A DNA stretch of 64,000 bases, taken from Perkinsus chesapeaki. Its lineage: Eukaryota > Perkinsozoa > Perkinsida > Perkinsidae. This document shows positions 2,986 through 34,000 of this stretch, in pieces. The position numbers were made by a program, and so were the translations under genes. The DNA lies in assembly GCA_013115145.1 (NCBI GenBank), contig JAAPAO010000078.1:24306-88305 (forward strand), written 5' to 3'. The notes under the pieces are model-generated. The model was not told the origin of the DNA, searched no databases, and saw only the letters and a list, made by a program, of their open reading frames with translations. Position 1 is the stretch's first letter; the number at the start of each line of letters is the position of its first letter.

Positions 2986-4296
2986 CTACGCCGCCTTGAC
3001 CATTTTCGGTTCGTGTTTTCCGGTCTTGCATTTCGGTAGTGCCATAAAATCATCCCAATCATAGCTCCGTGCACCGCAGCATGACCACTCCTTCTTCAAG
3101 TCGTGGAAAACTGGCCTAAAATGCACCCCATGGGACTCGAACCCAAGCCAGTGGCTTCCCGTAAAGCGGCTGCATGCTCTACTGCTCCACTATTCCTCCA
3201 GTAGATTACTTCCCATCATGATAGTGGCAGCAACCTTCCACGTTATCCTCTGGATCATACTCCTTTCCGCAGCCAACGTGACAGCAGCGATATTTACCAG
3301 ACGGTGTAACCTAAGCCACATTCTTCACAGTGCGCAAAAGACTCCACCACAAATTATTCACAGTGCGCAAAAGATTCTACCACAAATTATTCACAGTGCG
3401 CAATCCTCCGAAGATCCCCCCATTACAAGCGGTTTCATTTCGACCTGCGGCTTTTCCTCAACCTTCTCCACTGACAAGGCCGGAGCTGGAGTATCTAAGG
3501 TCGAAGCCATCCGTCTGGACTATGAGCTCACAAAGATACTCTTGCTCTCCTTCTCAGTTGTGTCTATTCTAACAGGTGCAGACGACGGCATGGTCACCAA
3601 GCCGCTCGAATTAGTATCTATCCGTTGTGGGGTAGATGACTGTACTGATGCTGCCTGATCCTCAGCTTTGGCTTGACCAACACCTGAAATGCATCCACTG
3701 GGAATCGAACCCACGACCTTCAGCTTGTAATCCGCATTGCACACAGAAAACTTCGGCCTATGTTTTTGGATCCCTCCTCTGCGTTCCCGTACATATTCAT
3801 CGAGCAATTCGCGCAGCTCAGCCGAGGACGCTCCCTTCGTACAACACAATCGGATTGTGTTGTTGTGTTGTGACAATCCCAACACTAGCCAGTGGCTAGT
3901 AGCCACCAATTCTATGCGAATTTAATAACGAAACTTCACAGCCCCACTGCTGAAAGATATTCCACCCTATTACCCGGCTTCACTGGTTTAACATCCGTAT
4001 GCTCCCCAACTGCACACCCCGGAATCTGCATGAACTCATCCCAGTCATACTTTACTGCCTGCCATCCACAAATCTTACACTAACCTCGCTATAACCCCAC
4101 CTACCCCACAGCACGTCCATGTCTTTTTTATATCTTGGAACACGGGCCACCCTGGATGATACCGACATGCCTCAGGACCGTTGGTCGCATCAGTATACCT
4201 ATTCACCACATCACCAAAGCTCACACAACCATCCTATCACTTTTTACCGCACCCGTGGTGCCGACATGTCTTAACAACTTCACTGCTATCAGTCAT
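2986..4296 (-). CDS. CHORD-domain protein with two CHORDs (RAR1/CHP-1 family, HSP90 co-chaperone type)
   Basis: The ATG at 4296 opens MTDSSEVVKTCRHHGCGKK; splicing gives a first CHORD with CRYHPGWPVFQDIKKTWTCC, then AVKYDWDEFMQIPGCAVGEH near 4000. A linker with Ser/Thr-rich and Glu-rich exons follows. The second CHORD reads CCHVGCGKEYDPEDN, CCHYHDGK then PVFHDLKKEWSCC and YDWDDF..LPKCKTGKH. The stop is at 2986-2988, ten residues after the last His. Each CHORD normally binds two zinc ions through these Cys/His residues. No CS domain follows, so the architecture is closer to plant RAR1 than to animal CHP-1. The intron splitting CHORD2 (3116-3209) is a complete tRNA-like unit; another tRNA-like unit ends at 3684. 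The exact exon borders around 3400-3850 are not resolved. Confidence 0.85.
3116..3209 (-). mobile_element. Complete tRNA-like (SINE-like) element forming a 94-nt intron in CHORD2
   Basis: On the minus strand the intron runs GTAATCTACTGG...GCATTTTAG. It contains an A-box-like GTGGAGCAGTAGAGCATG, an anticodon-arm region, then the B-box GGGTTCGAGTCCCA and a short tail GGGGTGCATTTTAG that supplies the acceptor AG. Splicing it out joins YHDGK to PVFHD inside the second CHORD in frame, which fixes the boundaries. Confidence 0.8.
3311..3405 (-). repeat. Three-copy ~33-bp tandem repeat in a CHORD-gene intron
   Basis: Three copies, about 33 bp apart, of a unit containing TTGCGCACTGTGAA (minus strand). 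The unit matches the core of the ten-copy minisatellite in the GlnRS intron at 54754-55094. The intron ends GTGGCTTAG before the CHORD2 exon; the donor is not fixed. Confidence 0.6.
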
Positions 4297-4464: not shown

Positions 4465-6592
4465 TCAATTTTCAAACTTAGAGTTAGGAGTCTTCGGACT
4501 CGCCATTATTTTCATTCTTTCCTCCCCCATGCTATCCCCACTCTTTGGTGCGCTCAACAGACTCTCTGTGAACGTGAATTTCTCCTCTTTTGGGACCTGA
4601 AAAATACCTTTACCAGGATTCGAACCCGCGACCTCTTACCAATTTCAACAACGGTAATCGCATGACCAGTGCGACCAAATAAATATACGCCGTCACCACA
4701 AACGTGTAACGATAATCATGATTATCCATCAAATACCCCCCAATAACAGCCGAGCCAGACCAAGTCATCGACGACAGAGACTCCAAAGCATTCCACCTGC
4801 CACGTTGATGAGATGGCACGAAGTCCATAATAATCGATCTATCTACCGGATAGATAGCATTCTGCACCGCACCACGGATCAGAAAAGTAAAGACGACCGC
4901 CGGCAGCCATCTGACCCAGGCCAGACAGAACAGGCATATCACACCCATTGACGAGAAAAGTATCCCAGCTTGGACTCGACCGATGTGATTAGCAACTTTA
5001 TCACAAAACCAAGTGAACAAGCCAAATGTTAGGCCGTAAAATGCCCACAGTAGCTGCACTTGAGTTGGACTGAAATTGTAGTCGTTCTTGAAGAATAGAG
5101 GGAAGAACTTCACTGTCATTCCAGCTCCTATACAAGTGATAAAATCATTGGCACACATCAGATAAGGAATCGTCCATGTCCATTTAGACGTAACTTTCCT
5201 GTGCACGCGTCCACCTAAGATTCATACAGCTTCTCAACAATCTATGTAATATTCCCTATCACCTTCACGGTTGCCGCTGTTGCCGCCGAGGCCATCCTCA
5301 TGGCTCACATCTGTCCATCCAAACAAGAATAAATTAGCCGGTATAAAGCCCAGGAAGCCAATAATCAACACCGTATGCAGCACACTGAGCCTCCATGCAT
5401 TCCCAAAGTAAACAAACAGGAAGAGCCCGATGAATGGACCGATTCCCGAGGCTAGCTGATTCACCACAGAGGCCCAGGTCAGCCACTTGGCTCTGTGGCC
5501 TTGAGGGATCGAGTCCGCGAAAAGGGAATATGTTGCGCAGTTTTGGGTGGCGAAATAACCACCGGCAACGGCGAGTGCAAAACATAAAACTATAATCTGA
5601 AGAAGATATCTTCTGGAGGTCTTATGTGCACGCTTCGAGCTAAGATGCCATGATCATCCCCGTTATTACGTTATCGAAGTGTATTCCGTATATTGATAGA
5701 GCAACCATCACCAGTGATGCCCATCCGCATAAGCGACAAATCCGAGCTCGAGAGAATCTTTTAAAAAATATCCGACCTAAGATACCATCTGCATTAGCCT
5801 ACTTATCAACCAAGATTCCTGCGGGTATGGCCGCAATGACCTGACTCAACCCAGAAATAGATTCAGCCCAACCGACAGCTTTATTGGAATCACCAGCCAT
5901 CACGTAAAGGTAGGCGTCAAATATACCCATTTGGGCGATAGCTTGACAAATACCTTGAAGAGCTGAGAACCTAAAGAGTATCTATGTCGACCGTGCAAGA
6001 TACAAAATAGGTTGATGTCTACATCAACATGTGATAAATGTTCTTCTTGCATGCCTTTTCAAAGTCCTCTTTATCTGTTATTGGAGATAAGACTTGATGT
6101 CCCAGATGATTGGTAGTGGGCATCCTCACAGAGAATTATAGATACACTGCAAGAATAACAACAACCCCGATTACCCAACGCGCATGACTAGCAACAAGCA
6201 GTACCGTGTCAGAATCGCTACGCCCCGGTAATCGATTATGGTTCGTGCCTGCTGCTGCACTGTGACAGCTAGAGAACGTGACAGTTGAATTGTCATAGGC
6301 CAAGCGGACATCGTTCCGCTGATCGAGAATTATAGGTCTCACCGTATGCGGTAATCAACGAACACATCGTTCAACACTCACGGCATATACGCGACAGTCC
6401 AACTTCCTTCTTAAATGGAGACACATTGTACACATGCCAACACCATGACTGCCTTATCAAGCATGAACAAACAGCTAGAAAAGGCGTGATCCATAAAATG
6501 GGTATTACCCTGAGAGTAATTGAAAACTGTCCGAATTTACGTATATTCCATATATCAGCAAAACCTCGTGGGCCCAGTGTGTTCATGTTCAT
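4465..6592 (-). CDS. Major facilitator superfamily transporter, multi-exon
   Basis: Integral membrane transporter; substrate unknown. Exons on the minus strand give hydrophobic blocks in order: VIGVVVILAVYL near 6150, then ALQGICQAIAQMGIFDAY and SGLSQVIAAIPAGILVDK with FSRARICRLCG near 5750-5960, which together form the DK-x-SR-x-R loop motif of MFS carriers. Next come CFALAVAGGYFATQNCATYS and NQLASGIGPFIGLFLFVYFG, then a C-terminal half from 5206 with about six helices (for example SPTQVQLLWAFYGLTFGLF). The last helix ends LPLLKL and is joined across the intron 4597-4639 to a tail VPKEEKFTFTESLLSAP...; stop at 4465-4467. The N-terminal exon and start (6592 used here) are uncertain. The CHORD gene starts 168 bp further on, same strand. 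Confidence 0.75.
4597..4639 (-). mobile_element. 43-nt intron made of a tRNA T-arm/acceptor-end fragment
   Basis: Minus strand: GTAAGAGGTCGCGG, then the B-box GGGTTCGAATCC, then a tail ending GGTATTTTTCAG. Removing it joins LPLLKL to VPKEEK in phase 0 in the MFS gene. The helicase intron at 23493-23538 has the same plan and the same ATTTTTCAG end. Confidence 0.8.
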
Positions 6593-9841: not shown

Positions 9842-9974
9842 TCTACTTGCTTATTTGCTCAATGACTGCCAAGACTATTTTGTCCTGGGGGCTATATGAG
9901 GATAGCCAATGCGATACCTGTAGAAACCATACTCTGGTAGTGTTCATAAGATTTGACGACTTGTTACCTCTTTA

Positions 9975-10364
9975 ATGAGATATCGTCTGAACTTCATTTC
10001 CTACCTGGCCGTGATTATAATCTATGCGAAGTGTATATGTAAGGTTTATGGAGTGGCTCCGAACGGGAAGTATTGTAAGAAAGTTCCCCTAGTCTGCAAA
10101 GTCGAACTAACCTTTCATGGAAACACCTTCGATGTATCTGCTACTTATGGGCTCAAGAAAGGATCGGCTATGGGTATCCCTTATACCATGCCTAACCCGG
10201 AAGTGGTGGAGATACCCATAAAGAACGAAGCTATTGTGAAGCTGTTTAATGATTTAAAGCCACCGGTGAAACTAGAGGAGCTACGATCCCTCGAGTATAC
10301 TAAGAATAGATTAAAAGCTCACACGAGCAAAGGCAACATAGCCTTCAAGAAAGAGAGTTGCTGA
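9975..10364 (+). CDS. Small secreted protein, paralogue A (129 aa)
   Basis: Single exon. Hydrophobic leader MRYRLNFISYLAVIIIYAKC, then a mature core shared with three paralogues downstream: NGKYCKK, a beta-like stretch VELTFHGNTFDVSATYGL, KKGSAMGIPYTMPNPEVVEI, PIKNE, a LF..L.PP motif, LEY and a C-terminal Cys as the last residue. The conserved pair YC...C(end) could form a disulfide. Subtype A is marked by GIPYTMP.PEVVEIPI; its closest relative is the copy at 14647. Function unknown; not recognised outside this window. A palindrome cluster lies upstream and a hairpin just downstream. Confidence 0.8.
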   Translation: MRYRLNFISYLAVIIIYAKCICKVYGVAPNGKYCKKVPLVCKVELTFHGNTFDVSATYGLKKGSAMGIPYTMPNPEVVEIPIKNEAIVKLFNDLKPPVKLEELRSLEYTKNRLKAHTSKGNIAFKKESC

Positions 10365-10390
10365 AGGCTTGTCCGCTAGAGTCCTTAACC

Positions 10391-10407
10391 GCCTTCTAGT
10401 AGAAGGC
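10391..10407 (+). other. Hairpin downstream of secreted paralogue A
   Basis: GCCTTCT-AGT-AGAAGGC followed by TTTT, 27 bp after the stop codon. Possible 3'-end or RNA-stability structure; role not established. Confidence 0.5.
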
Positions 10408-10409
10408 TT

Positions 10410-12660
10410 TTAGTATATCAGTCGCGTAACTGAGTACACATTGTCAGAGTGTAATTTCAGTGGGACTCACCGGTGCTCCACCATTGGTGCAAGTTCTCAA
10501 CTGAGGAGAATACGTGGCTGAGATGTATTCTTGTGTAAATCCACCGGCTTTTTGATTCCGTGTACATTAGTCACCTCAGTAACATCCAATCCACTTCAGG
10601 GTGCCTACTTTAGTGGGTGCTCCCAAGTTGCTAATGCTGCTGCGGTATTATAGACTTGCGTTAATTCGCAGTGAGCCAGCAACAATCAGTAACTTTGCCA
10701 ACCCAAACTAGCCAGCGCTCGAAGTTATACCGACTACACGTCTTGGCGATGAAGAAATATTTTCAATCCCAGCACAATAATTGTGCCACAATTTTCCTTG
10801 AACTCTTTCTGGGGAGTTTCTCAAATACCCTGTCACCTTATCCTAGCACTTGAAGCATCGATACCCTGCGGAGCGATGTAATCGAGAAGCCGTTCTTCGC
10901 GAACTTGCTCTAACTAGTGCCATGTCCGGGACATTGTTATGATTGTAGGCCCTTTGGATGCAGCCGATACGTTCTAAGTTTGTGTTGTTTTATGTCCCAT
11001 TATGTCTGTGTAAACTTTTCCACTTAACCTTGTTCCGTTTATGAAGCTAGTGGATCGAGTGTAAACATATACGAATTACGTCAAGTTTTTATTTATTTCA
11101 ATATGATCAATCTTTTGAGTTCCAGCGCAAACGGTACGGATCACAACATATAACGTTGCTTATTCTGGGTAAGGAGTCGCGGAGCGTATAGGGTCTATTC
11201 CAGTACAAACTTGTTAATCTTAGTTAATATTGTTGATACTGTTAATTGTTGCTAACCCAATAGTCGCGGATGGGGATTTCCCGGGCGGCCTCAACCGGGA
11301 GCCAGCGATGCCTTTGTGGAGGCATAGAAGGATCCCTTCTCTTGTGAAACTTCCACGGCGAAAGTTGTCAAAAGATGAAGTTATGTTTGCAACTCTCCAC
11401 AATATGTCATCAATCTGCTGTTGCAGTGACGAGATGAGCGCTAGTGGCTCCTCGCTAACCCTGGTCCAGGATTCCTGGAGGCGATTAAAGTGAAATGGGC
11501 TTCCAAGTTCCGAGTCCGAGTGGTCGGACCCGAGGCACTTTAATTCGTACTTTTAACCCGAGCTCGGAAAACGACCTTTTCCGAGTACTTGGACTCGGAA
11601 AACCGAGCACTTTGATTGCCTCCTGGATGTTACATCCACAATGCCAATGCCATTGCAGGCTGGGCTGCTCTGTTACCCGTTTTGTAGCTGGATCACGTCA
11701 ACTCGCGTCAAGGAATTCTAATGATTGTGGATTGACCAAAGAAAAACTAGCCTCCACCATAAGAAAGCGTGACAATCAGACTAAGTGTGGAAAACTCCAC
11801 TACTTCAAACAAAGGAGAACCCCACCGACGGTCGATGATCGACCAGTCTGTTCAGTACAGCACAGCGACTACAGCGCAGGCTCGAGATCCCAATCATACT
11901 TCCTGGCAGGAGGTTCCTGCCAGACCACCCTGATACAAACGTGACCGTGAAGCGCGGCGCAGTATACGAAACTACATGGAGCCTACATGTATCCCGTCGG
12001 GATAGGTTGGGGATAATCCCGAACCTAGCTAAGAGAAAGGCATCATCATAGTAAACTCTAGGGCGTTGACATAAAAAGGAAGAATGGTAACAGATAAGCC
12101 ACAATGCGTGTGGCGAGCCAGCGGCGTTGTGAGTCACATCCTAAAGGTGGAGTAACTTTTCTGAACAATGCAATGTCCCCTCTTTTACCCTACTTTCTCG
12201 TGCAAGATGATGCCTCCTCGCTACCTTTGGAGGCTTGAAACTGCTACAGTAGCAACTCGCCATGCCGTCTCCGTGTTTTTGTGGTCTTCTGGAGTGTGGC
12301 AGTCACGCGGTTCACTCCTCGCGGTGAGATTTGCAGCGGGCCGCCGCCGTCGCCGCCGGCGGCGGCTGATGCACTTCGCGGCGCCGCACCACCGAGCCCG
12401 CGCGTACTTTTGGTTCCGCGTTCGCATTCAGAATATCACTCTGCAACTACTGCCAGAGTCTGCAGTCTACTATTGCTCATTCCTCGTTCATATGGATGAA
12501 CACAAGACGATAAGGGAGCCAATAAAGGCTTCTTACTCACCTCACACCCGCAAGGGGAATGGGCTACGTGACGTATATACAAGGGAGCGGGCGTCGCACA
12601 ATGAATAATAAAGTAGCAGTTCCTACTAATCTCCTCCTTTGCAGTTGTTGGAAGAACTGT
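10410..12660. other. Spacer without a supported gene
   Basis: Only weak frames. It holds the inverted-repeat element at 11473-11627 and a GCC/GGC-rich self-complementary stretch near 12341-12366 (GCCGCCGGCGGCGGC). Confidence 0.5.
11473..11627. mobile_element. MITE-like element with 20-bp terminal inverted repeats
   Basis: The left end TCCTGGAGGCGATTAAAGTG and the right end CACTTTGATTGCCTCCTGGA are inverted copies with about three mismatches. The 115-bp interior is itself rich in CTCGG/CCGAG inverted motifs, so the whole unit could fold into a long hairpin. No coding capacity. Confidence 0.65.
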
Positions 12661-12664
12661 CCCA

Positions 12665-13063
12665 ATGGTCTGCCTTCTCAACTTCATTTGCTTTCTACTT
12701 GTCGTTACGCTCTATGGAGATACATCGAATAATGTTACGGCTCCATGGCAGCCTGAGGGTTGGTATTGCAAGAAATTCCTCGTGGTGTACAAAGTTAACA
12801 TAACTTTCCGGGACGATACTTTTGATATAAAAGCATCTTATCTGTTGAGGAAAGGCTCTGCTACCAACCTTCCTTATACTATGCCACGTCCGAAGCTGAT
12901 GGAGATGCCAATCGACAACGAAGTCTTCATCAATCTTTTCGCGGCTGTAGATCCACCGTTCCCGATCGATGAGGTAAAATACCTTGATTATGATCATGAG
13001 AAGGAGGTATTGACAGCTTATACGAGAAAGGGTCAAGCGATTTTGACGCACGGGAAGTGCTAA
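12665..13063 (+). CDS. Small secreted protein, paralogue B (132 aa)
   Basis: Single exon. Leader MVCLLNFICFLLVVTLYG, then NNVTAPWQPEGWYCKK, YKVNITF, FDIKASYLLRKGSATNLPYT, MPIDNEVFINLF, a PPFPIDE segment and a C-terminal Cys. The central ~100 bp (from LLRKGS to INLF) is almost identical in DNA to the copy at 16624 (only a few differences), while flanks have diverged, so the two are recent duplicates or are being homogenised. Function unknown. Confidence 0.8.
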   Translation: MVCLLNFICFLLVVTLYGDTSNNVTAPWQPEGWYCKKFLVVYKVNITFRDDTFDIKASYLLRKGSATNLPYTMPRPKLMEMPIDNEVFINLFAAVDPPFPIDEVKYLDYDHEKEVLTAYTRKGQAILTHGKC

Positions 13064-14640
13064 AACACTTAGTGAGGGTCCCTTACCGTTAACTATGAGT
13101 GCCGCTTTCTATGAGGTTACTGGGATGCATTGGTATTCAGTTGCCTAGATTTAGGTGGTAGTATATACATTTCCTACTGCCCGTAGTGTACTCATTTCAT
13201 TGCGATGGCACTTTGGATTCATTAGTACTACCCTGAAGCTCATATCAGTTCAGCTCTTTCTAAGAGCTTTTCATTTGCCTATGCAGTAACGACTTGTGTT
13301 GCATTCAACGTTTGCTATTGATGTGTGTGAGCTCATAGTCCAGCGCCGAAATGTCATAGTTACATCAACTAGTCCTTATGATACATTTCATGCGACTTCC
13401 AACAGGGTCCGATGCCTAGCCACGGAATTACGCAACAGAGAGCATGTGTACAACTACCTAAACACAGTAGCTCCAATCACTAGAGTCTACTGGTGCGACA
13501 GCACAAGCTTTATTTCTAGGCCACCAAGTATTCAGTCTTAGCATGCAGGAACACTCTTTTAGGGTCCCCAATATGAACCCAGTCACATCAACTCGAACAA
13601 ATTGTTATTTCCGTTCCGTTCTCATCTAGAGAAGGAGGCCAGAACGTAACCGATGATTTGGTCGCTTACAAATGAGCAGTAGATGTGAGCTATCATCCTC
13701 CACTCCACGGTAGTTCCATGAGCCGCAGCATCTATGCCACGGTGGTACTATACCGCCGAGTGTACCACCGGGCATTCAGCAGGCGAGAGAGTCTCGATAA
13801 TACTGTGAGAACGCACCGGTTCTCCACTCTACACAACGCGCTGTAAGAATTCCCTCGGCCTCGTGTTCCGAAGGGGTTCTAAAGAACAGAGTTAGGATCA
13901 CATTCACGGCTTATATAAAGTGCAGCGATAATAACACTGTACAAAAATTGTACTACTGTTAATTTAACAGTGTTAAATAGCATCGTGGTACTACAGACTG
14001 AGATATTATGTGTATGTCTTCTGTCTACGAGAACGCATGAGCAATATCAATCTGAGTCTCTGATCAGCAATTACCCTCCCAAATCGATTTTACGGGCTGG
14101 ATATCAGAAAAGAATCATGCAGCGAGGGCAAACTGAGGTTTACGACAACAAAGCTATAAGAAATTGAATAGCATATCTGATTAAAAATGCCACCTCTGAA
14201 TGGAAATGAACTATCAGAGTCACCATAGTCTGTCATTGCTAGTTTCACACGCAAATGTTTGAGTTAGATCACATCACATAATCCACCAAATGAAGCATTA
14301 TGCACTCAGAGCGCAGCACTCTACGCTTACATAGAGTACTGGTCCTCTTTCGGGCATTTTCCCACCCAATGTCCTGACAACATTGTTGTCCGCCGCATAA
14401 CCGGCGACTTAAGTTCAATACACAAAACGCCCGCTATTATCACGTCTGACAGATTGACTCAATCCCCGTGACACACACATGATACATTCTGTGACAGAAT
14501 TACTGTCCCCATCTTGCCTTTACCCTGTTCCACAAAGCTAACCATATTTATAGTGAACTGTAAAAATTATCTATTAAAGGGGCCCCTTCGAATATCTTTT
14601 ATCCTTGTGTTGTTCGTAATACTGCACGCCCGCAGCTTAT
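13064..14640. other. Spacer with palindromes and a dispersed short repeat
   Basis: Contains TGTGAGCTCATAGTCCAG at about 13327-13344 (also in the CHORD gene, minus strand, near 3525-3545) and, overlapping it, a motif ATAGTCCAGCGCCGAAA that recurs with one change near 16171. Short palindromes GTACAAAAATTGTAC and CTGTTAATTTAACAG lie near 13940-13970. A frame at 14514-14720 begins with a hydrophobic leader and NPNGLYEC, resembling the start of a family member, and may be a decayed copy. Confidence 0.4.
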
Positions 14641-14646
14641 CCCAAA

Positions 14647-15048
14647 TTGAGAATCCCAATGGGCTCTACGAATGTCAACTGCGCTCGCTGGTTGTTGGTT
14701 TGGATATATGCCGAGTGTGAGTGTTTAGCCATTACCACGGTTCCACATGGTATGTACTGTAAGACGGTTAGGCCAGTGTATAGTGTTAACCTTACTTTCC
14801 ACGGCAGCAGCTTTGATATAGAAGCGAGCTACTGGGAGCACAGAGGGTCGGCTACAGGTATGCCTTATACCATGCCTAGGCCGGAAGTCGTGAAGATCCC
14901 CATCGGGAATGAGGACCTTCAAAAGCTGTATTATGCCTTAGACCCGCCAATAGTACCATTTCAACTAGAGTATGCGGAGTACATAAAGGATAGATTGAAG
15001 TTCTATACCAGCGCAGGTAACCCCGTTTTGACGAAGTACAATTGCTGA
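14647..15048 (+). CDS. Small secreted protein, paralogue A' (133 aa)
   Basis: Single exon. The segment ARWLLVWIYAECECLAITT aligns with the leader of paralogue A; MRIPMGSTN precedes it, so the true start could be internal or use another exon. Core: GMYCK, YSVNLTFHGSSFDIEASY, RGSATGMPYTMPRPEVVKIP, IGNE, LDPP, LEY and a terminal Cys. The motif PYTMP.PEVV.IPI places it in subtype A. An overlapping frame at 14514-14720 looks like the 5' part of a further copy. Function unknown. Confidence 0.7.
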   Translation: MRIPMGSTNVNCARWLLVWIYAECECLAITTVPHGMYCKTVRPVYSVNLTFHGSSFDIEASYWEHRGSATGMPYTMPRPEVVKIPIGNEDLQKLYYALDPPIVPFQLEYAEYIKDRLKFYTSAGNPVLTKYNC

Positions 15049-16620
15049 GGCTTGTGATGAAGATGCACTTTTATTCATCTTGTCTTAAATGTACTTAATT
15101 TATTGATGCCCTCGCTGGGAAAGCTTTGCAATTAACCTTGTTAGCAAAGCGCAATGATTTGCTACTAGCAAAGGTTCATACTCGCGAGTATAACCTTAGT
15201 AATTGTTACACCAAAGGTGTTTTGCGTTCCGCGCAGTGTATTATCTCGCGCCAACTCTTCCAGTTGAACTAACTCAACACGCTTGCTTCATATGTCTCAA
15301 CAGTCACCAGCATTCAGTGACGGCTACCCACCAACCATCATTAATGGAAGACTCATTATGAGACTAGGGGTATTGCTGTCGCACCACGAAGAAGGTGTGT
15401 AAGGGCACGGGTTCCATCGAGAATCTTAGTTTGAGAAGGCGAGGAAAATTGGATAGTATCCAAGTAATCGTTGATCACTCGGATACTAGCTAATTGCTAG
15501 TAGCAATTACTAATCGATTACTAATCGAGTTCTTCACAATATATGTGACTGATCCATCCTACATAGTGTAAGGCTACATTAGCCTCCATGACGGAGGATT
15601 CAGTTGGGTACTCAAATGTTGGTACATTGTGCGCTAGATGACATGTCTTCCTCCCTCGCCAGTTAGTGGGGACTGCATACTATAAGCGAGATCTACATAC
15701 AATGTACATTGCAAATAGGTTGTCCGCAATTATGGCGCGCCACTGGGATTTACTCACCAGTCTTTTTGGAACCACTAGCAGTCATGATACATGTGCTGCC
15801 ATGCTTGCTGCCCGTGGTAAAGCGTCCTCAATCACGGAAGGTCTGCCCACCGAGAAGTCGGCCCTGCAGCACTGGGCGGTTACGGGTCGAGGTGGTAGAC
15901 AGCCGACTCGCCACGAGAAACTCTCTCTTGTCGCTTAACATGAGTGTTGTGAAAGTAAGTTTCAATTTAGGGCAGGGATTTCACGTGGAATACGCCCAGA
16001 ATCTGTATGTCTCATAGAGCAGACTCTGCTCAGCAAAGAGTTATTCAGGAGAGGGCGCTTAAGGAGCTTCACTATGCTGGTGTCCCATCGTACCATTCTT
16101 GCACCGCGTTCTCAGAGAGAACCATGAATGAAAAATATACTATATGGAGAGTGAGCATTTGTGTGGGTTTATAGTCCAACGCCGAAAAGGCCATGATCGG
16201 ACTATTCATTCTATGGTTGAGTCGGGTACGAGTACAAGAAGATAGATGTAGATGTGTATGCGGCTTGACACAACAGACCGTCCCCAATGGAGACTCTCCA
16301 TAGTTCCATTCGCACGTGTATACAAAAGTTGAAAGCTTTAAAATAAAATCTTGAATATAATATTAAATTTATATAATTTTAAGCTATATATGCTCAGAAA
16401 TGAAGCTTAGCAGGAATAAAGGGATCTCGTCACACGGTGTGAGTCAAACCTTCAGGATCGATTTGCTTATAGTGTCGCGTACCAGCAATTCTCGAGTCGA
16501 TCGAGTGTTTGCCGTCGTCGACCAGCGGGCCCCGGTGACCGGGGAAAAGCAGTGTTTTTTCAGCTCTCAACTCGAGAATCTCAATTCGACAGTTGTCGGT
16601 TAACCTTGTCGGAACTCACT
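15049..16620. other. Spacer with hairpins, no supported gene
   Basis: Several short self-complementary stretches: AAGCTTTGC...GCAAAGC near 15120-15150 and CCTCCATGACGGAGG near 15583. An AT-rich patch lies at 16340-16390. Two overlapping frames near 15666-16017 show no family features. Confidence 0.4.
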
Positions 16621-16623
16621 CCA

Positions 16624-17022
16624 ATGCTGTTCGTTGTCAACTCAATTGGCTTCCTGCTCATCGCTATGTTCTGTGGGAGCTGTTCGGAATGCGTTACATC
16701 TCCATGGAAACCAACGGGGTCGTATTGCAAGAAGGTGCTCTTGGTGTACAAAGTCAACGTAACTTTCGGTGACAAGACCTTTGATATTAAAGCGTCTTAT
16801 CTGTTGAGGAAAGGCTCTGCTACCAACCTTCCTTATACTATGCCAAGTCCGAAGCTGGTGGAGATGCCAATCGACAACGAAGTCTTCATTAATCTTTTCA
16901 GGACCCTAAATCCACCCTTTCCGATAGATGATTTGAATTATCTTGAGTATGATCATGAGAGGGAATTTTTAGCAGTCTATACGGGCAAGGGTGCCATCAA
17001 CTTGACGCGTGCGGATTGCTAA
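16624..17022 (+). CDS. Small secreted protein, paralogue B' (132 aa)
   Basis: Start chosen at the ATG that gives the leader MLFVVNSIGFLLIAMFCG and the same length as paralogue B; an upstream in-frame ATG at 16552 would add 24 residues before the leader. Core: SPWKPTGSYCKK, YKVNVTFGDKTFDIKASY, LLRKGSATNLPYTMPSPKLV, IDNEVFINLF, NPPFPIDD, LEYDHE and a terminal Cys. Very close to paralogue B. Function unknown. Confidence 0.8.
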   Translation: MLFVVNSIGFLLIAMFCGSCSECVTSPWKPTGSYCKKVLLVYKVNVTFGDKTFDIKASYLLRKGSATNLPYTMPSPKLVEMPIDNEVFINLFRTLNPPFPIDDLNYLEYDHEREFLAVYTGKGAINLTRADC

Positions 17023-22153: not shown

Positions 22154-23870
22154 ATGCCAGAAGTAGAATCAAAAAAGAGATCTTTAGATTCCGACAAGGT
22201 TAAGTCGAGCACACCCGAAGTTATCTTTGGTGATTCCAAAATCGAAGTTGCCGGTAAAATATCTATCTCACATTAATGCACAGTCCCCATCAGGTTTATC
22301 GGACCCCACAGAGGTCCCTCTTGCCCGGACGTTCGACGAGTCTGGTCTGAGAAAGTCTCTTAAGGAGTATCTTAGCTCCAAGTTTTCCACTCCTTCCGCC
22401 ATCCAAGCTGCCTGCTGGCCCCTCTTGCTTTCTGGTCTCGATGTCGTCGGTGTCGCTGAGACCGGCAGCGGCAAGACCCTCGGTTTCGCATTGCCTTTCA
22501 TGTCGAAGGCTATGAATAAAGGAAATGACGGTATGATGATGGTGTTATCTCCCACTAGAGAGCTGGCGAGGCAAATCCACGAGGTTATCGTTGACGTTGA
22601 CAAGAAGAAGCAAAAGTTGCCTTCAATTTGCCTGTACGGCGGCACTCCTAAGTGGGAGCAGCAGAAACAGTTGAAGGCTGATAAGCCTCGAATAGTGATT
22701 GGCACCCCCGGAAGGGTCTTAGATCTCCTCCAGGACGGCTCATTGGACTTCTCTAAGGTTAACTATGCAGTTTTGGACGAAGCTGATCGAATGCTCGACA
22801 TGGGGTTCCTACCGAGTGTCACGCAGATCTTCGGATATCTTCCATCGGCTGATAAGAGACAATCTCTTATGTTCTCAGCTACGTGGAATAAGGAGGTAAT
22901 AAGGTAATTTCGTGGCGAGTGAGGATTGGTCACAGGTACGAAGATTATCTAGAAAGTTGATGAAGCGTGAGCGCATTACTGTTACTGTTATGGGCAGCAA
23001 TGAGACCAAAAGCAACCAGGATGAGTTGACCGCCAATACTCGTATCACCCAGATGATCGATGTGGTCCACGATAGGAAGCCTAAGATGGACCGTCTATGG
23101 CATCATCTTGGTAACCTATGCCCTAATAAGGGAGTGTGGAAGGTAATATAAAGGGGATCGGAAGAGGAGGACTCAGCAATCGCCGGGATGTTGGAAATCT
23201 GTCACAAAGTCTATTTTTATACGAAGAGTGTTGGCTATCAGGTTATTGTGTTCGCACTGTATAAGAAGGAGGCAGCCCATCTCGAGCGATGCCTCAGGGA
23301 CTACTATGATGTAGTGGGTCTTCATGGCGACATGACACAGTCCGCTCGGGAGGCCTCTATTAAGCGGTTTACCGAGGGGCAAAATCTTATATTAGTAGCT
23401 ACTGATGTAGCAGCTAGAGGCTTGGATGTTAAGGACGTCACTGGTGTTATTAACTACACTTTCCCTTTGGTTATTGAAGATTACGTTCATAGGTGAGAGA
23501 GCGACGCAGGTTCGAATCCCAGGGAGGGCATTTTTCAGGATTGGCCGTACTGGACGTGCAGGGCGGACGGGCAAGGCTGTTACCATCTTGAATGCTGATG
23601 AGGAGAAGCAGTTCGCCTTCGATCTTAAGGGACTTCTTGAGCGATGTGGCCAGGAGGTAACTTCGGTAGCGGTTGATGGGGAGTACTTGGTATGGCCAGG
23701 TACCTGAGGCTTTGAGTAAGTTGGCAAACCAGACGGGTGGGTTCAAGGCGAGCAAGAAGAAGGTTCATCCCATTTATGGGGCATTCTTCAAGGATGAAGA
23801 GGAGATGGCAAAGTTAGAGGCGAAGAAGACTCATATTACCTTCTCGGATGATGATGAAGATGACGACTAG
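22154..23870 (+). CDS. DBP3: DEAD-box RNA helicase, Dbp3 type (ribosome biogenesis)
   Basis: ATP-dependent RNA helicase; the yeast relative acts in the nucleolus on pre-rRNA for the 60S subunit. Motifs in order: Q-motif region STPSAIQAACWPLLLSG, motif I AETGSGKT, PTRELA, GG, TPGR, DEAD in VLDEADRMLDMGF, SAT, then ELTANTRITQM and VFALYKKEA (both Dbp3-like), ATDVAARGLD, and HRIGRTGRAG restored by splicing. Introns: 22896-22935 (40 nt), 23143-23241 (99), 23493-23538 (46), 23657-23699 (43); all phases close. The acidic tail ends SDDDEDDD. The first exon is uncertain: MPEVESKKRSLDSDK from 22154 needs a short intron (ending 22283) to reach the helicase frame; otherwise translation starts at 22227 (471 aa). 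Confidence 0.9.
22896..22935 (+). repeat. 40-nt intron holding one GCG-TIR arm
   Basis: GTAATAAGG-TAATTTCGTGGCG...GTCACAG between WNKE and VRRLS of the helicase, phase 0. The arm is in the forward orientation; a PH-domain intron of identical length (26772-26811) carries it inverted. Confidence 0.9.
23493..23538 (+). mobile_element. 46-nt intron made of a tRNA T-arm/acceptor-end fragment, inside helicase motif VI
   Basis: GTGAGAGAGCGACGCA, then GGTTCGAATCCCAG, then GGAGGGCATTTTTCAG. It splits the codon for Arg in H-R-IGRTGRAG, one of the best conserved motifs in biology, so both borders are certain. Confidence 0.92.
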
Positions 23871-24318: not shown

Positions 24319-27300
24319 ATGCCTAGAGTCCAGGAGTATCGAATAGTCCTTCCAATGGAGGTCGAGCAATACCATGTTGCCCAGCTCTACATGGTCGCCA
24401 AGTCTAGCCTGGAAGATACTACTGGCGGGGCTGGAGTGGAAGTGGTTACAAACGAACCATATGATGATGGTAGTAGTGGTTTGGTGTAGTGGTTAGTATG
24501 TCAGCCTTTCTCAGGGGAGACCCAGGGTCAATTCACTCATAAGCGCATTTCTATCGCACCGTATTTGCCGTCTTGGGTAACATCATTGGTGAATCCTGAT
24601 TGGCTGGTATTCGACGAGAAGAGTTGGAATGCCTTCCCTCGGTGCCGTACGGTCTACTCTTGTCCGATGCTTAGTGAGTTCTCGATGGAGATTGATAGTA
24701 TGCATATTGAAGGCAATTGTACAGATGATAACGCTCTTAAATTGGATGGTAACAAGCCGACAGTTTTTACGCTTTTTCTATCAGTTTTTGCCAGATGCGG
24801 ATCTTGCTAAGCGTAAAATTGACTTCATCGATATCGTAAACGATCACATATCCAGCAGGGATTATAATGAAGAAGAAGACCCGTCAAAATGGCATAGCGA
24901 GAAGGTAGATGGAGACAAGCGTTCGGACGGGGAGATGCTGTTTGCAGCTCGACATGGGACCTTTGGAGTCTGACTGGATGCAGACGACTCAGCCGATCAT
25001 GACGTGTTACAAGGTACTAAGGGGAAGGGGGTTTGGTCACCTGGGGGCGGCGTCGGCGGGGGGGAGGTGTTATTACGTGCTGCTGCGATGTGATAATACG
25101 ATTTGATTGTCGATTCGGTGCTTAATAGTGCGGAGTGGAAGAAGCATGGAATAGTTACATTCGTTGCATGTGGACGTAGTTTATATCGAGTGTCATTCAT
25201 TTGAGTGGTTATCAGGTTATTCATGTTACCTGTAATCCTGGGTTTATGATGCAGAACAGAGTTGAAAGTTTTATAGTTAAAGCGACTAAGACAACTCTAT
25301 TCAAGTAGTAAGGGGATGGATACTTGATAAAGGGGCGAATCCTGCCCAGTCGAGAGGACATGACAATAATGCCAATGTAGAGTGTATTCAGCGATGGTCT
25401 GAAGCTGAATAACTGAGTTGAGTAGTTCAATTACTAACCATTATTTCCTTCGCCACATTGAGGCCGATATCAATTGGTTTCGATTGCCGTCGTTGGAAGG
25501 CTGTCGTTGGCCTTGCCGTTTTTAACAGCGTACATCACCATTTCTCGAAATTTACGCATTCTCTGTTGGCGTGGAAAGCATTGGTATTAAAGGACGTATG
25601 GGCTCCATAAGCAGCAGGAGTCGGATTGATTATTACCGTGGTTGGCTACCTTTACGCTACGTAGCTGGGGGGAGCAGGGTGGAATCTCGAACCTCGCAGG
25701 TATCATCGAAAATGTGTGTGCTGGGCGGATGAATGGGCCGATCTGACGATGGATGATATTCGATTGATGGAGGATAAAGTCCAGAAGAAGCTGCGGAAGT
25801 TCTGGAGGGACAAACGGATTGAGGAAGGCTTGGAAGTTGCCAGCGATTCTGACGCCAGCGAAGTGCAGGGGGAGCTGGAGGGCACCCCTACTGCGGATGA
25901 GGATGCCTCACCCGGCAGCGCAACTGGCCGCCGATCTCGAACTGCTAGTCGAGCATCAAGCAAAGATACCACCGGGTTGCTAACAGTTACGGCATCACCG
26001 GTGGATCCGGCTAGGACTAGTGTGAGTGCGAGTGTTAATAATGACATAGCGGCGAGCGGTAGAGTTGGGGCTAGCCATAAGTGCAGCAGCATCACTGGTG
26101 GAGGAAGCGGTGTGGAGGTTATGAGGGCTGGATCGCTGTTTAAATTGGGGGATGGTATTATAAATACCAGCTGGAATGAGAGGTAGTAGTGGGGGGAGGG
26201 AGGGTTGGTAATTTCGTGGCGCGTGACAAGGAATTGGGAATACTGTTGTAGGGAGGTAGTATGGGAATAGGATTTAATCTATTTTGTTACTCGTTGATGG
26301 GGTGCATGTTCGATCTTTACGTCGCGCGCCACGAAATTAGTTGGTGACGTGAACTCTGCTCTTCAAGGTTGGTGAAAAAGCATTTAGTAGGGTTATGATT
26401 TTGAGAATATCGTCGAATAGGTGGAGAGTCATCTCAATTACGATAATGCCGATCGGTGTTCGATGACCGAGAGGTGGGCAAGCATGCAGTCTGGCAACTG
26501 CTGCTGCTACCAGCTTATCGATCGAGAAAGGAAGGGGCGTAGTGCGTAAACAACTGCGAGGTGTTACTGCTTTTGGCATTCAAACTAGCACTGATGTGTT
26601 GTGAAGTGGGGCCTTGAATGATGTATGTTTAGATACTTTGTGCTGTCGGGATCTGTCCTGAGCTATTATAGAGATTCGAGGGAAGTACGACCGAGGGAGA
26701 GTATACCGATGAAAGGGGCTGTAGTGCAGTGGTGTGGCTCACATAAGGGAAGAGAGCATGCCTTTATAGTCGTAATAACGTCACGCGCCATGAAATTGTA
26801 CGGTTATTCAGATGCCCAAGGACCATCGCAGACAGGTTGTTGTGTCTGGTGGAAGCGAGGGCGAGACGCGTCAGTGGATGCTTTGGTGTCAGGAGGCCGC
26901 AGATAGGGCTACGGCCTCAACGACACCTGGGCCAACCATGGAGGCATCTCCTAAGGTGGCTATGGTAGCTGAAGGAGAGCCAAAGGGGGGCGAGGGAAAG
27001 GTGAGTGGCGGTCTTTGGAGGGAAAAAGCAGTGTCTATCTTAGGTTGAAGCGCGCTCTTCGGGTGGTGGAGTAGTTCGCGAGAAGTCTGTTGATAAGGCT
27101 GGGCCGTCGGTGTCGTCTTCGTCAGGGGGCCTTCTGCCAGATGCCTGTACGCGGTATTTGCCTAAAGACCCTTTAAGAGGAATGGAGAGCCTTCTGAGGT
27201 TTGCTAGATGTGGATATCAAAGGAATGATATGTGTATGGTGTAAGTTGCCGGGGGTGGGGATCGAACTCGGGTGGGATGCCTCTGAGCAGGTCAACTGAT

Positions 27301-28449: not shown

Positions 28450-30460
28450 AACTGGTGGGAGCGTGCATAGTGGCCAGTCTACAACGTCTTCTTTGTGCCC
28501 TTGAAAGCAGTGATGCCTTCCTAACCACATCTGCAGCAGCTGCCCGGACCCCTGGTTACCGAGCCATCATAACTCCTGGAGACACATGCCAATGCAAGAC
28601 GATCCCTCGAGCTGGTCGAGGCCATGGAGCTGATATTTGCTGGGAGGCAGTGGCGCCCGATTGTGCTCATTATTTAGTGACAGAGGAAGAGGGCTGCGGG
28701 AGATGGACGCAACGAGGCACGATAAAGTGAGAAAAATACCCTCGGTGGGATTCGAACCCGAGTCGTGCTACTGCAGGTTTGGTGTATCATTATTGCCTCC
28801 TACATTGAAGTACAGAACTACTGGGATAGCTCTCAACCTCACCGGAAAGCACTATATCGACTTCCTCAGTAGTGAAGTCAAAAATGCAGCGGAGCGGAGC
28901 TCTAAGAGAACTGCAAATAAAGGCATTACCGCCTTCGTGACAGAGCTACCACGGCTGGTAAAAATGCCTGTTGCCGGAATCGAACTCGAGACCTTCTTCC
29001 TCTCGTAGGTCTGTCGCCCATTGAGTGGTTCCTCCAAGCATTGCTTGTTACGTTGGGAGGGCAAAGTATCTATCAACATTCCCGGAGCCAACGGTGGCAT
29101 TTGCGAGCTCTCCATTGTGGATCCATCCAGCGGTAAGTTATCTCGCTGTTCTTGTTCAACCCGGATGAGGGAGGATTCAGGCCGAGTGGCTGGAGAAGTC
29201 CGAAACGGTCGTGGTGGCCTGCATAGTGTTGGAGAGGGCAATATATTCGACCGTGTGTGCTTCGATGGCGAGCCACTTTGGGTTAGCGGCCTGTGCCCCG
29301 AGGATTTAGCGGCGTCTTCCGAGCATGCCGCTGAAGCCTTCCCTCCAACGTCCCCAGTTGTCGAGATAAAGGTAGGGTGCCGGGATCGAACTTGGGACCT
29401 TTCAATCGCATACTTCAGGTTGAATCTAGCAAGCGTCTCTTGCCGACTGATTGTCATACTCATCGATTGATTGGTCGCCGGCGCCGGGTCCAGTCGACCA
29501 AACCATTACAGGAATAATTGCCTCTATCATCCACTGCCTTATTGTAGCATTTCTACCACTTTTTTCAACTCCTTGGCATTTGAGTTAACCAAGTGGGAGG
29601 GGGTCGGGCCCGCTGCAGTCCCTAATTCGCTCACTATGCTCCTCACCGGCTCACTCCTCTTTTTTTGCTCGGTGTACGGAGCACCCTTGTGGGACTCTGA
29701 GACTTGTCTGGAGGAATGCCCCGAGCTGGCTCAATCCGTGGCACTGCTGGAAGCTTTGGTTCTATCTCCTAAACTAGCCGCGGCCGCTCTATCGGGGAGC
29801 TATCAAGCCGGGTGGGAGGAGTATTTGACGCTTCGATCAGATTGATTGCCGTGTGTAGGTATAAGGCGGTCCGCGAGGACAAGGTGTACTCATGTGTGGC
29901 GGAAAAGCTATGTGGAACGTGTTTAGAGGTGAGCAGGGATCGAACTTGGGACCTTTGGATGAGGATTAATAAGTTTGTTGCTCTACCGTTCGGCCAGGAA
30001 TCCACGTGCACGATTGGGCGATGCATTGTCGAGAATGTCGCATGTCGGGCCTTAACCGATTTCACCTCGGATCTAGTTAAGATATGTTACTGCTCGATTG
30101 GTGAGCCACGACCCTACCCTTCCCTCTCAACCATCACTTCAGGTTACAACATCGCTGTCTTAAATGGGATGGTTGACCCCCAGTGGTCATCAACTGACCC
30201 TCCCTTCTGCGAAGGTGGTGTGAATGCTCCTCAAGGAACAGCAGAGACTGTTCAGGAATCATGCAGAGGTCGGTCACCTCGTTGGTTTAAGTATCCAGTA
30301 TTTTGCATTGTTGGACAGCGCCGCAGTGTTGGCTATATGCGGCCGTTGCCACTCGGCTGAGAGGGAAAGGAAGTTCCAGAGGAATAATTTGCCTAATTTT
30401 TTCGCGAAATTTGTAGATACTTGTCAGAATTCCGGTAGACTTTCGGATAGGATATGAATC
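28450..30460 (+). CDS. Unresolved spliced coding region, possibly a lipid-binding (OSBP-like) protein
   Basis: Exons are visible between clear introns. One reads CIIIASYIEVQNYWDSSQPH (after 28776). The next, after 29008, reads LRWEGKVSINIPGANGGICE, then across a probable 53-nt intron RVAGEVRNGRGGLHSVGEGN and FDGEPLW. This spacing (GKV.I...C.L...V.GEV...G...LW) is loosely like the C-terminal half of oxysterol-binding proteins, but I do not find the EQVSHHPP signature, so the assignment is weak. A later exon ends YQAGWEEYLTLRSD near 29845. It could be a separate gene or the 3' part of the PITP-PH gene. Confidence 0.3.
28727..28776 (+). mobile_element. 50-nt intron with reverse-orientation tRNA T-arm
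   Basis: GTGAGAAAAATACCC...GGGATTCGAACCCGAG...CTGCAG. Here the tRNA 3' end (inverted ATTTTTC) supplies the donor. Confidence 0.65.
28958..29008 (+). mobile_element. 51-nt intron with reverse-orientation tRNA T-arm
   Basis: GTAAAAATGCCTG...GGAATCGAACTCGAGACC...CTCGTAG; same plan as 28727-28776. Confidence 0.65.
29372..29418 (+). mobile_element. 47-nt intron with reverse-orientation tRNA T-arm
   Basis: GTAGGGTGCC-GGGATCGAACTTGGGACC-...ACTTCAG. A near-copy of GGGATCGAACTTGGGACCTT recurs at about 29935-29955, where more of a tRNA-like unit can be read on the minus strand (GGCCGAACGGTAGAG ... AGTTCGATCCC). Confidence 0.65.
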
Positions 30461-31081: not shown

Positions 31082-34000
31082 ATGTCATTCAACGGCAGCC
31101 CGATTCGGCAACAACCGGAGGAGGCAGCCCTCCCCGTCATACCACAGCAAGGGGAAATACACCACCCCATAGTGCTCCAGCAGCAGCAGGGGACAGATGC
31201 CGCACCACAAAGCCCAAATGAATTGGTCATCGGTTCAGTGGCAAGCAATAGTCCTTCTGGAAGCCCACTGCCACCTGCCCCGCCTCAACACCCACAGATT
31301 CCAACCCCAGCCACTAGTAGCAGGCCGGCCAGTGCTGGTACCAGTACGATGAGCACACAAGGGGGCAGCAGCGGTATAAGGCTGCAAGTGGAGGAAATGA
31401 AGCAGTACCTCGATCAGGCTAAATGCATGTAAGGTTGGATGAATAAAATATTATATAGTTGGAAGTAAATTCTTCGGAAAGTGGTACCGGCAACCGCGCT
31501 TGGGCGGAGTTGTAGAAATAGGAGATAACTTCGGAAGAGGCGCTCTATTATAATTATGAGGCTTCTGGGCTTCAACCCACGCGAGTTGCGTTCTTTGTGT
31601 GTTTTTCGAAACAAGTTCTTTTTCAGGTTCGCAGATTCTCCCGATAAATACGAGCAGTTGCTAGAGGTCATTGCCGGTAGCAATGACAACTGCTCCCTTA
31701 TAATTACTACCTTGTAGGTATGTCTAAAAGAACCCGTCCGCATCAGCCGGCCCCACCAAGCACTGCAGCCTCGACTCCCTCTGGTACAGTGACCGGCATC
31801 GGGGCACTAGTGGGGCAACTTCAACAACTCAATCACAGTCCTGACCAACAACAGCAACAACCCGCGGCAGCAGGCGTCCAGATGATACAGGCTCTGCAGG
31901 GTCTGATGCAGCATCAATCACAACAACAGCAGCAACAAGCAGTGGTGCCACAGCCAACACCTATGGATATTGCCAGACAGGAGGATGATATATCGGAACT
32001 GTGGGGCTTGCTCTATTTCACTACCGCCAATTTCACTTGTGTGTTTTAGGGACAACTTGGATGTTGGTGGTCTTATCGACAGGCTACTGGAGATCTTTGA
32101 GGGCCAAGGCGCGGCTAAATCCATGGTGAGGACGGGAGGGTATAGAAAGATCGACTTAGTCGATTCATCGCACGAGCTGCATGGGGCGTAGTTGATCTCC
32201 CTCCTCGAGAAACATTAAGAAGTGGAGATATAATAGAAACCCTTGTTCGCGCTCAACATTTAATATTGCAGTGTGTGAGCGCCATGCCGCCGGTTTGGTT
32301 AATCTACTAGGGATTACTTTAATATTAGTTATCAATCTCCATTGTTCTATCGCTCACTGATAATATTGTTAGTATCTAGCACGGCACCTGTCCAGGTCAT
32401 GGTATAGTCCCGGATGTTTTGAGATTCATTATCATCCTTGCAATCAGGTCCTATGCTTCCTACAACTCTGTCGGCTATCAAACCATCCAGCAGCCAGTTG
32501 GCTATTCGAAGAAGCTGAGAGACTTCGAGAAGCAGAAGTTAAAAGGCAAAAAGAGACCGAGGAGAAAGAAGCGGTAAATTGATTTAAAATGCCGCGTGCC
32601 GGGTTCGAACCCACGCCATTTTAGTTTGCAGCAGTCAGTGCAGCTGCTCGCGCTACTGCTGACGTAATAGGGCCTCCTGGACCGCCAATCTGTCTGGACC
32701 GCGCGGCCACTATGGCGTTTTTGACAGCAGGTGAGCGTCACTCTGCCAATCGATTGATGTCACTCATGTCGTTTCAGTTCTTCCAACTCTTCCGAGCAAC
32801 GTCTATGCGGTAGGCATTGACTCGGGTTCGATCCTCGGCAGAGGTGTTTCTTTTATCAGGTTCTTAGCTCTGGTGTCTACCAAGGCCTTGAAGCTGGTAT
32901 AGTTAATAGCAACTTCGATGAGGGTATGAGGAGGGTCCTGCAGAACTATGCCATGGCTACCTCAGTGTAAGACACATATCGCCATTCTCAAAAGTACGGG
33001 CATTTGAAAATAAAATGCCGTACCTGGGATTCGAACCCGAGATCTCCGTCCCTGTACAAAGGGTGTGGCAAGAATGATGGGTTCTGATGGTAGGTACCTG
33101 GCTCACCGTAAATCGATGATAAGGGTTCATGGGACTAACGAGTCGGCGTTCCCAAGTAGATCCACTGGAACCAGACGAGCTCCGGCTGCAAAGGGAAAGA
33201 GGAAACGAGCAACAACAGGAAGAGGAGCAGCAGCAGCCAAACAAGCTTCTACTAGCTCTGAGGAGGTATGTGAGAGATAACGGCTGATAATTATACCAAA
33301 TTTCCGTCGAATCTACGGGCATATCCCTGTCCTAGCTGACATTAGTTATACCACAAGTGTTGCCATGATTTCCTGAAGAGCGCGCGTTGTCCTAGAGTGT
33401 GACGTGGGAAGATTTCCTGAGGGAGATTCGAGGCAGATTTCCGAGAGCAATGTCAACACCCTAAAGAGAGTGAAGGGTAGTTATTGCGAAAATATTTCAG
33501 AACGGTCAAGGTTCGAGCGAGGAGGCCAGCGTTGAGGCTACAACACCTGAATCGGATGAGAGTACTGAGCTATCAAGGCAACCGGTTCGGCAAGCTAGGA
33601 AGAAAAGGGTAACTTTTGACGGAAAAAACGTAAAAACTGTCTCGTTAAGGCGAAGGCGTCTTCATCCTCCGAAGTATCTGATGACGATGCGGCGGTGCCA
33701 AAGAGACGGTCAACTCGCCGGACTCGTGCAGCTGTGAAGGTAAGTAAGGTATTTCTGGACGCTCCTATGCAGCATTTAGACCGAGAGAGGAGCATCATCA
33801 TCTGAAGCTGAGGAGCCAGTTGCTAAGCGTGGTCGAACAAACAGGAGAAAAGGCAAATCAGCTGGCAGCGCGGGGGACAGCTCGGTGGTGAGCGCTACAC
33901 AAAGACTAGGGGAGGAACCGACAATGGAAGGCCGAGAACGAGTTGCGCTTGAGATGCTGGTGGAGATTCTACCCCCTACACTTGCACATGAGATGTAACC

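Follow-up and report, generated by a model that had tools for sequence, protein, structure and literature searches.

The predicted DEAD-box helicase gene of this locus is interrupted, within the codons of its motif VI, by a 46-nt stretch that looks like the 3' end of a tRNA, which raises the questions of whether this stretch is a true intron, whether it is one of many, and how a tRNA-like sequence could have come to make up a whole spliceosomal intron. All positions refer to the window, that is, to the whole 64,000-nt stretch of Perkinsus chesapeaki DNA that was analysed. The features at the helicase gene are:

22154..23870, + strand: predicted DEAD-box helicase gene with five predicted introns, the module intron included (self-trained gene finder)
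23493..23538, + strand: module intron, 46 nt, sense, inside the R codon of VHR/IGRTGR; intron-support score 25.4
23500..23535, + strand: tRNA-3'-end-like module in the helicase intron; position weight matrix (PWM) score 44.7; member of the module alignment
23509..23519, + strand: exact B box GGTTCGAATCC in the helicase intron

The helicase product matched a PDB entry with an E value of 1.1e-78. The intron reads GTGAGAG...GGTTCGAATCC...GCATTTTTCAG, with GT and AG at its ends, and the module copy in it is laid out as a V-loop-like GGTC/CGAC, the B box, 10 nt, an A and TTTTT. Excision of 23493-23538 gave VHRIGRTGRAGR and restored the motif VI flanks VHR-IGRTGRAGR, and in the single alignment inspected the spliced product crossed the junction gaplessly against DBP2 (8ark). 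Judged by this homology, the 46-nt stretch is a true intron, removed in frame at a conserved site as the preliminary description of this DNA had maintained. Of 36 DEAD-box matches in the genome, at least 18 continue through the same junction without a stop, so the intron position is not general in the family. A DNA search with the helicase region returned the self-match only.

The plan of the helicase intron recurs elsewhere in the window, at the end of an unrelated gene:

4597..4639, - strand: sense-oriented module intron of 43 nt that lies at the end of an MFS transporter gene; support score 21.3, gene finder

This intron reads GTAAG...ATTTTTCAG and follows the same layout, so that the plan earlier proposed as common to the two introns was indeed seen in both. 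The further proposal that both are removed in frame at conserved positions holds in full for the helicase; for the MFS gene the frame stays open after splicing, and a conserved position could not be assigned because the exon downstream of the intron is without a supporting homologue. Pfam MFS_1 backs the upstream exon, its match stopping near the 4597-4639 junction.

Across the window, the box with at most one mismatch was matched 9 times against 1.18 expected (two of the matches being both strands of one site), and a weight matrix of the module recovered about 11-12 copies at a score of at least 12, against at most 0.4 expected (0.0 in simulated sequence). The further copies are:

32810..32859, + strand: predicted intron of 50 nt holding a diverged module in sense, its box at 32825; splice score and gene finder, without homology support
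27241..27290, + strand: predicted 50-nt intron with an antisense module body (box at 27258 on the - strand); score 13.2, without homology support; the gene finder picked a different donor (36 nt)
28732..28767, - strand: module copy, weakly supported as a + strand antisense intron (50 nt, score 9.3)
33011..33046, - strand: module copy without intron support (PWM)
3685..3720, - strand: module copy with variant box GGTTCGATTCC (box scan, PWM)
3117..3152, - strand: module copy with variant box GGTTCGAGTCC and an A-box-like stretch upstream, tRNA-like over ~90 nt (box scan, PWM)
32585..32620, - strand: module copy whose box GGTTCGAACCC is palindromic; it scores 12.2 when read as a 58-nt antisense intron
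28960..28995, - strand: diverged module copy (PWM 26.7)

The stretch 3116-3209 (- strand) had been put forward as a full tRNA-like version of the element; its end is indeed TGCATTTTAG, and an A-box-like stretch lies at tRNA distance, yet no tRNA was called there by ARAGORN or cmscan. At 29382 the peptide RDRTWDL is an antisense reading of a weak module copy, and the same peptide is repeated across unrelated frames, including the ORFs 29009-29470 and 29773-30360 (+ strand).

We searched the 35.4-Mb assembly (884 contigs) and found 368 exact matches to GGTTCGAATCC against 8 for the reversed control. tRNA genes called by ARAGORN accounted for 23 of 112 distinct exact-box places and not for the other 89, and most of the non-tRNA exact boxes sit in a ~36-nt module, GGTCGYGGGTTCGAATCCCAGnnnGGCATTTT, for which fifty aligned copies gave the consensus AGGTCGCGGGTTCGAATCCCAGnnGnGGCATTTTT. 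The layout of the module is that of a tRNA 3' end followed by a Pol III terminator, with the box and A-TTTT spaced as in a tRNA gene, and similarity between copies ends near -20 and +27 relative to the box. Loci totalling 232 kb contained 21 non-exact copies, which extrapolates to a very rough genome total of ~3,000-3,200 module copies, rough because all sampled loci had been picked around exact boxes. The working set comprised 125 copies outside ARAGORN tRNA calls; at least one of them, at the edge of locus L063, is tRNA-Arg-like and was excluded from similarity and class comparisons. The consensus was identical in sense introns, in antisense introns and in copies without intron signals, all four sequence classes being dependent on the self-trained gene finder. 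ACATTTT was found upstream of the module in 5 of 52 copies against 0-1 in the control.

The gene finder, which was self-trained on ~290 kb of this genome and is conservative in that it undercalls genes, settled on GTRRG as donor and T-rich YAG as acceptor, with intron lengths peaking at 40-50 nt. Intron support was measured with a local splice-and-frame score whose splice matrices had been retrained without module introns. Of the 125 copies, 21 scored at least 14 in sense and 9 did so in antisense, where 3000 random places gave 2.4% per strand; lowering the threshold to 8 raised the counts to 35 and 18, respectively, with 4.8% of random places. Support was wholly absent in 55-57 of the 125 copies. 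Among 118 copies, a strong donor and a strong acceptor occurred jointly in 15 when read in sense and in 5 when read in antisense, with 0-1 in each of eight shifted controls, although the 15 sense cases are only a modest excess over the 9.2 expected from independent sites. In sense copies strong donors clustered 9-20 nt ahead of the box and strong acceptors between +28 and +31; in antisense copies, numbered from the reversed box, the donors fell between -24 and -17 and the acceptors between +28 and +35. This clustering indicates that the intron edges are the module edges on whichever strand is transcribed. The notion in the preliminary description that the tRNA tail becomes the acceptor fits sense copies, in which the T-tract precedes the AG, and misses antisense copies, in which the reverse complement of the tail sits at the 5' splice site. 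That antisense copies are introns as well, as their splice signals indicate, was absent from that description, as was the fact that roughly half of all copies lack intron signals.

In 47 loci and the window together, gene spans contained 28 of 69 copies and 24 predicted introns carried one (13 sense and 11 antisense), introns making up 34.5% of genic bases. The 41 of 69 copies outside predicted genes may include introns of missed genes, the gene caller being conservative. For copies that are not introns, a role as spliced-leader acceptor sites is conceivable. Element introns had a median length of 51 nt (n=24) against 52 nt for 448 others (p 0.36). The idea that all introns contain a decayed module was rejected, weak scores being slightly in excess only and the distribution otherwise bimodal in these loci, which were chosen for an exact box. 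At L034:2460-2530 a module copy is preceded by CAG and directly followed by GTAAG, as if it were a 33-nt exon.

Five module introns were checked by protein homology (46, 44 and 41 nt in sense; 48 and 45 nt in antisense), in genes chosen for their recognisable products, other module genes being unchecked or without a family match. Besides the helicase intron, these are:

Pyruvate-ferredoxin oxidoreductase (L024): sense, 44 nt
MCM4-like (L073): sense, 41 nt
DnaJ J-domain protein (L046): antisense, 48 nt
TBL3/UTP13 (L093): antisense, 45 nt

In all five the module fills the intron and the junction was aligned gaplessly; for the DnaJ gene the gene finder gave a 69-nt intron, and the 48-nt one was set by hand and restores the J-domain HPDKNADNKEEAEKKF. 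Homology across the five junctions supports removal from the mRNA, and that part of the earlier interpretation in which a tRNA-3'-end-like module makes up whole, in-frame spliceosomal introns repeatedly is supported.

The description of the element as SINE-like was not supported. An A box at -75..-38 was present in 16 of 70 copies against 10-14 in controls and, among copies without intron support, in 10 of 52 against 9-15, and with the A-box scan at control level a SINE with A and B boxes was rejected. Outer T-stem pairs were no commoner than with shuffled partners, being equal or worse, and a complement to the acceptor strand (7 pairs) was found upstream in 10 of 119 copies against 13.9 when shuffled; with acceptor and T-stem unpaired, a folded tRNA or minihelix was rejected, L099 alone pairing both arms. 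That copy (L099:300-380) has its 7-bp acceptor-like and its T-stem-like pairs intact and no D arm, and is possibly a truncated tRNA and a candidate link to the module. The cloverleaf and paired T-stem of a tRNA gene were not found in the module, and cmscan made no tRNA calls in the 50 kb searched. A primer-binding site of an LTR element was rejected by reading, CCA/TGG being absent beside the discriminator position.

Among the 70 copies tested for target-site duplications (TSDs), the longest shared words were not above those of permuted pairs, and the junction repeats of module introns equalled those at other introns. Retroposition with TSDs was rejected in general, with L001 and L038 as exceptions: L001:1440-1540 and L038:4750-4880 bear flanking direct repeats of 10-11 nt (TTTTTTGAATT; TTGTTGCTCC), the sole long TSD-like pairs among the 70 copies. 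Near-identical copies were not found: 26 of the 31 variable columns agreed in the closest pair (L087 and L101), and when the helicase and MFS introns served as queries against the genome, in a search coarse in its first stage, each matched only itself. Without recent sister copies, there is no sign of current spread. Moderately similar pairs (at least 22 columns) numbered 45 against 3.6 in column-shuffled sets, an excess that makes common descent of the copies likely, but old. The flanks of the box shared almost no mutual information (excess 0.004), against values of 0.031 and 0.019 inside the 5' and the 3' flank, respectively. The few masters, subfamilies and flanking TSDs of a SINE were not found among the copies, nor were the TSDs, terminal inverted repeats (TIRs) or recent near-identical copies of an introner. 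In L087 and L101 similarity reaches well past the module, which suggests that the B box is part of a longer repeat there.

The most unexpected part of the data is the state of the box itself. Genome-wide, variants at the free position N59 numbered 383 against 80 for the control, a count inflated by tRNA genes, while variants numbered 43 against 29 at C56 and 21 against 29 at A58. Mutants of C56 and A58 are nearly absent while free positions vary, which points to constraint on the B box, as neutral decay would yield many; because the T-stem is unpaired, this constraint looks to be exerted at the DNA level. From these counts the B box looks as if it were kept under constraint as DNA, whatever the cause, and in this the module shows the intact, constrained box of an extra TFIIIC (ETC) site. 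Alternatively, young copies derived from very many diverse B-box-bearing masters could keep the box intact; the scarcity of near-identical copies counts against this, in a sample of 4% only. Reverse-transcription errors at a modified A58 left no sign, A58 variants being at control level.

The association of introns with the module is solid, and the reading we favour most is creation by insertion: a dispersed ~36-45 bp tRNA-3'-end-like element makes up whole introns in both orientations, and its insertion into exons would have created them, a proposition that we regard as evenly poised. That the element generates introns is plausible. The element consists of a V-loop-like GGTC, the B box GGTTCGANNCC, ten bases, a discriminator-like A and a Pol III-type T-run, spread in both orientations, and within protein genes it normally makes up a complete spliceosomal intron of ordinary length with splice sites at its edges. 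The T-run of sense copies acts as the polypyrimidine tract before the AG, with GTRAG 9-20 nt before the box, and antisense copies present GT and then the reversed T-run (GTAAAATGCC or GTGAGATGTC), with AG just past the reversed 5' edge. Insertion into exons would have given birth to introns in an introner-like manner, the terminal GT and AG being taken from the target or shaped there; the copies would be old, and the B box retained because TFIIIC or Pol III binding requires, or once required, it as DNA.

Since element introns are of ordinary length, the element does not lengthen an older intron, as a 40-nt insert entering a 45-nt intron would give a length near 85 nt. The MCM4-like site of L073 was compared in five paralogue places: the acceptor of the L124 intron falls at the identical place and phase and the L123 intron lies one base off, both introns being without a B box, and L125, L126 and L127 have no intron at this position. 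With ordinary introns at or near the site in MCM paralogues, the element may occupy an older intron there, and the pattern could result either from takeover of this kind or from parallel insertion at a proto-splice site. Takeover in general, whereby the element entered or converted pre-existing introns that length selection then trimmed to 40-50 nt, would likewise account for the tight intron-length peak at 40-50 nt and for exon flanks that are like those of other introns. We nevertheless consider it rather unlikely, because element introns are not longer than others, so that a half-trimmed population is not visible, the module fills the intron in 5 of 5 homology-checked cases, and the helicase position is uninterrupted in at least half of its 36 matches.

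The constraint on the box invites a different explanation, in which the copies would be functional B-box DNA sites, putative TFIIIC-binding extended B boxes that genes would tolerate through splicing, so that the introns are the coat and not the cause. The control-level C56 and A58 variants beside plentiful N59 variants agree with it, as do the unpaired T-stem, which places the constraint elsewhere than on tRNA structure, the want of near-identical copies, the immateriality of orientation and the almost zero mutual information shared by the flanks of the box. ETC sites, however, require only a B box, yet the spaced GGYA-TTTT end is kept in every class; young copies from diverse masters could equally show an intact box, and tRNA genes are included in the N59 counts. 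On balance this explanation seems improbable to us. So does the wider proposition built on it, that the lineage has thousands of individually old B-box elements, each kept intact by selection for TFIIIC binding and tolerated in coding regions because it is spliced out, whichever way it points, as a separate intron of 40-50 nt, such that a Pol III promoter element would both found introns and be preserved by them. As for old tRNA pseudogene or SINE debris, with intron-like edges arising by chance and gene models that are artefacts, the few copies that look like full tRNA derivatives (L002, L018+6334 and window 3133) are what one would expect of it; five homology-verified introns, splice signals at the module edges in excess of shifted controls, undecayed core box bases and a set devoid of the A box make it a very remote prospect, and it is strongly disfavoured.

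tRNA-derived SINEs have in common with the module a Pol III B box, a T-run and dispersed copies in both orientations, but the module is without A box, tail, extra body, general TSD or subfamilies, and is shorter than 50 bp. With tRNA genes and pseudogenes it shares the order of B box, 10 nt, A and TTTT and the C48-like, T54-A58 and C61 invariants, and the module matrix gives tRNA-Arg(acg) genes scores of up to 34; unlike tRNA genes, the module has no 5' half, leaves its T-stem unpaired and draws no ARAGORN call. ETC sites, described as B-box loci without Pol III (PMC12409998), resemble it in having an extended B box without other promoter parts, genome-wide distribution and apparent constraint, and differ in that the module, for which TFIIIC binding is putative, ends in a terminator-like stretch spaced as in a tRNA and is removed by splicing.

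Introners are known from Micromonas, fungi, Symbiodinium and Amoebophrya (PMC9860276, PMC7789003, PMC3443670), and the first of these sources links them mostly to DNA transposons, gives median family lengths of 30-654 nt and describes splice-site recruitment that varies and certain families without TSD or TIR (PMC9860276). In introners, as in the module, entire introns at numerous sites consist of one repeated sequence; insertion in both orientations, recruitment of splice sites from the target and families lacking TSD or TIR are described for them. The module indeed provides a whole-intron sequence common to many introns of unrelated genes, through its ~36-nt consensus and without near-identity. 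Unlike introners with near-identical copies, it has a tRNA-3'-end-like body made of B box and T-run, its copies are diverged, and they lack TSDs and TIRs. The main text of PMC9860276 contains none of the words SINE, tRNA and Perkins*, and tRNA-like introners were not described in the titles or abstract openings of the literature searched, which was mostly without subscription journals and preprints. The origin of new spliceosomal introns is an old unsolved question; if true, a B box and terminator serving as intron body in both orientations, in about three thousand copies, would tie intron birth to tRNA-type DNA, and the B-box constraint would separately imply a genome-wide role of TFIIIC-type sites in this lineage.

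Two observations concern the host and the window rather than the module. The 21-base CCGTAGCCATCTTGGCTCAAG, the spliced leader of Perkinsus and dinoflagellates, occurs in the genome 8 times exactly and 17 times with at most one mismatch, against 0 for the reversed control, which on its own indicates a perkinsozoan host, most likely Perkinsus. Perkinsozoan leaders are described as having a consensus ACCGTAGCCA start, the last eight nucleotides in common and AAG ends (PMC9399869). In the window, four tandem related ORFs lie at 9960-17019 (+ strand; near 9960, 12689, 14620 and 16684) and share the pattern YCK..V..V..TF...FDI.ASY; they are probably a duplicated lineage-specific family, perhaps secreted.
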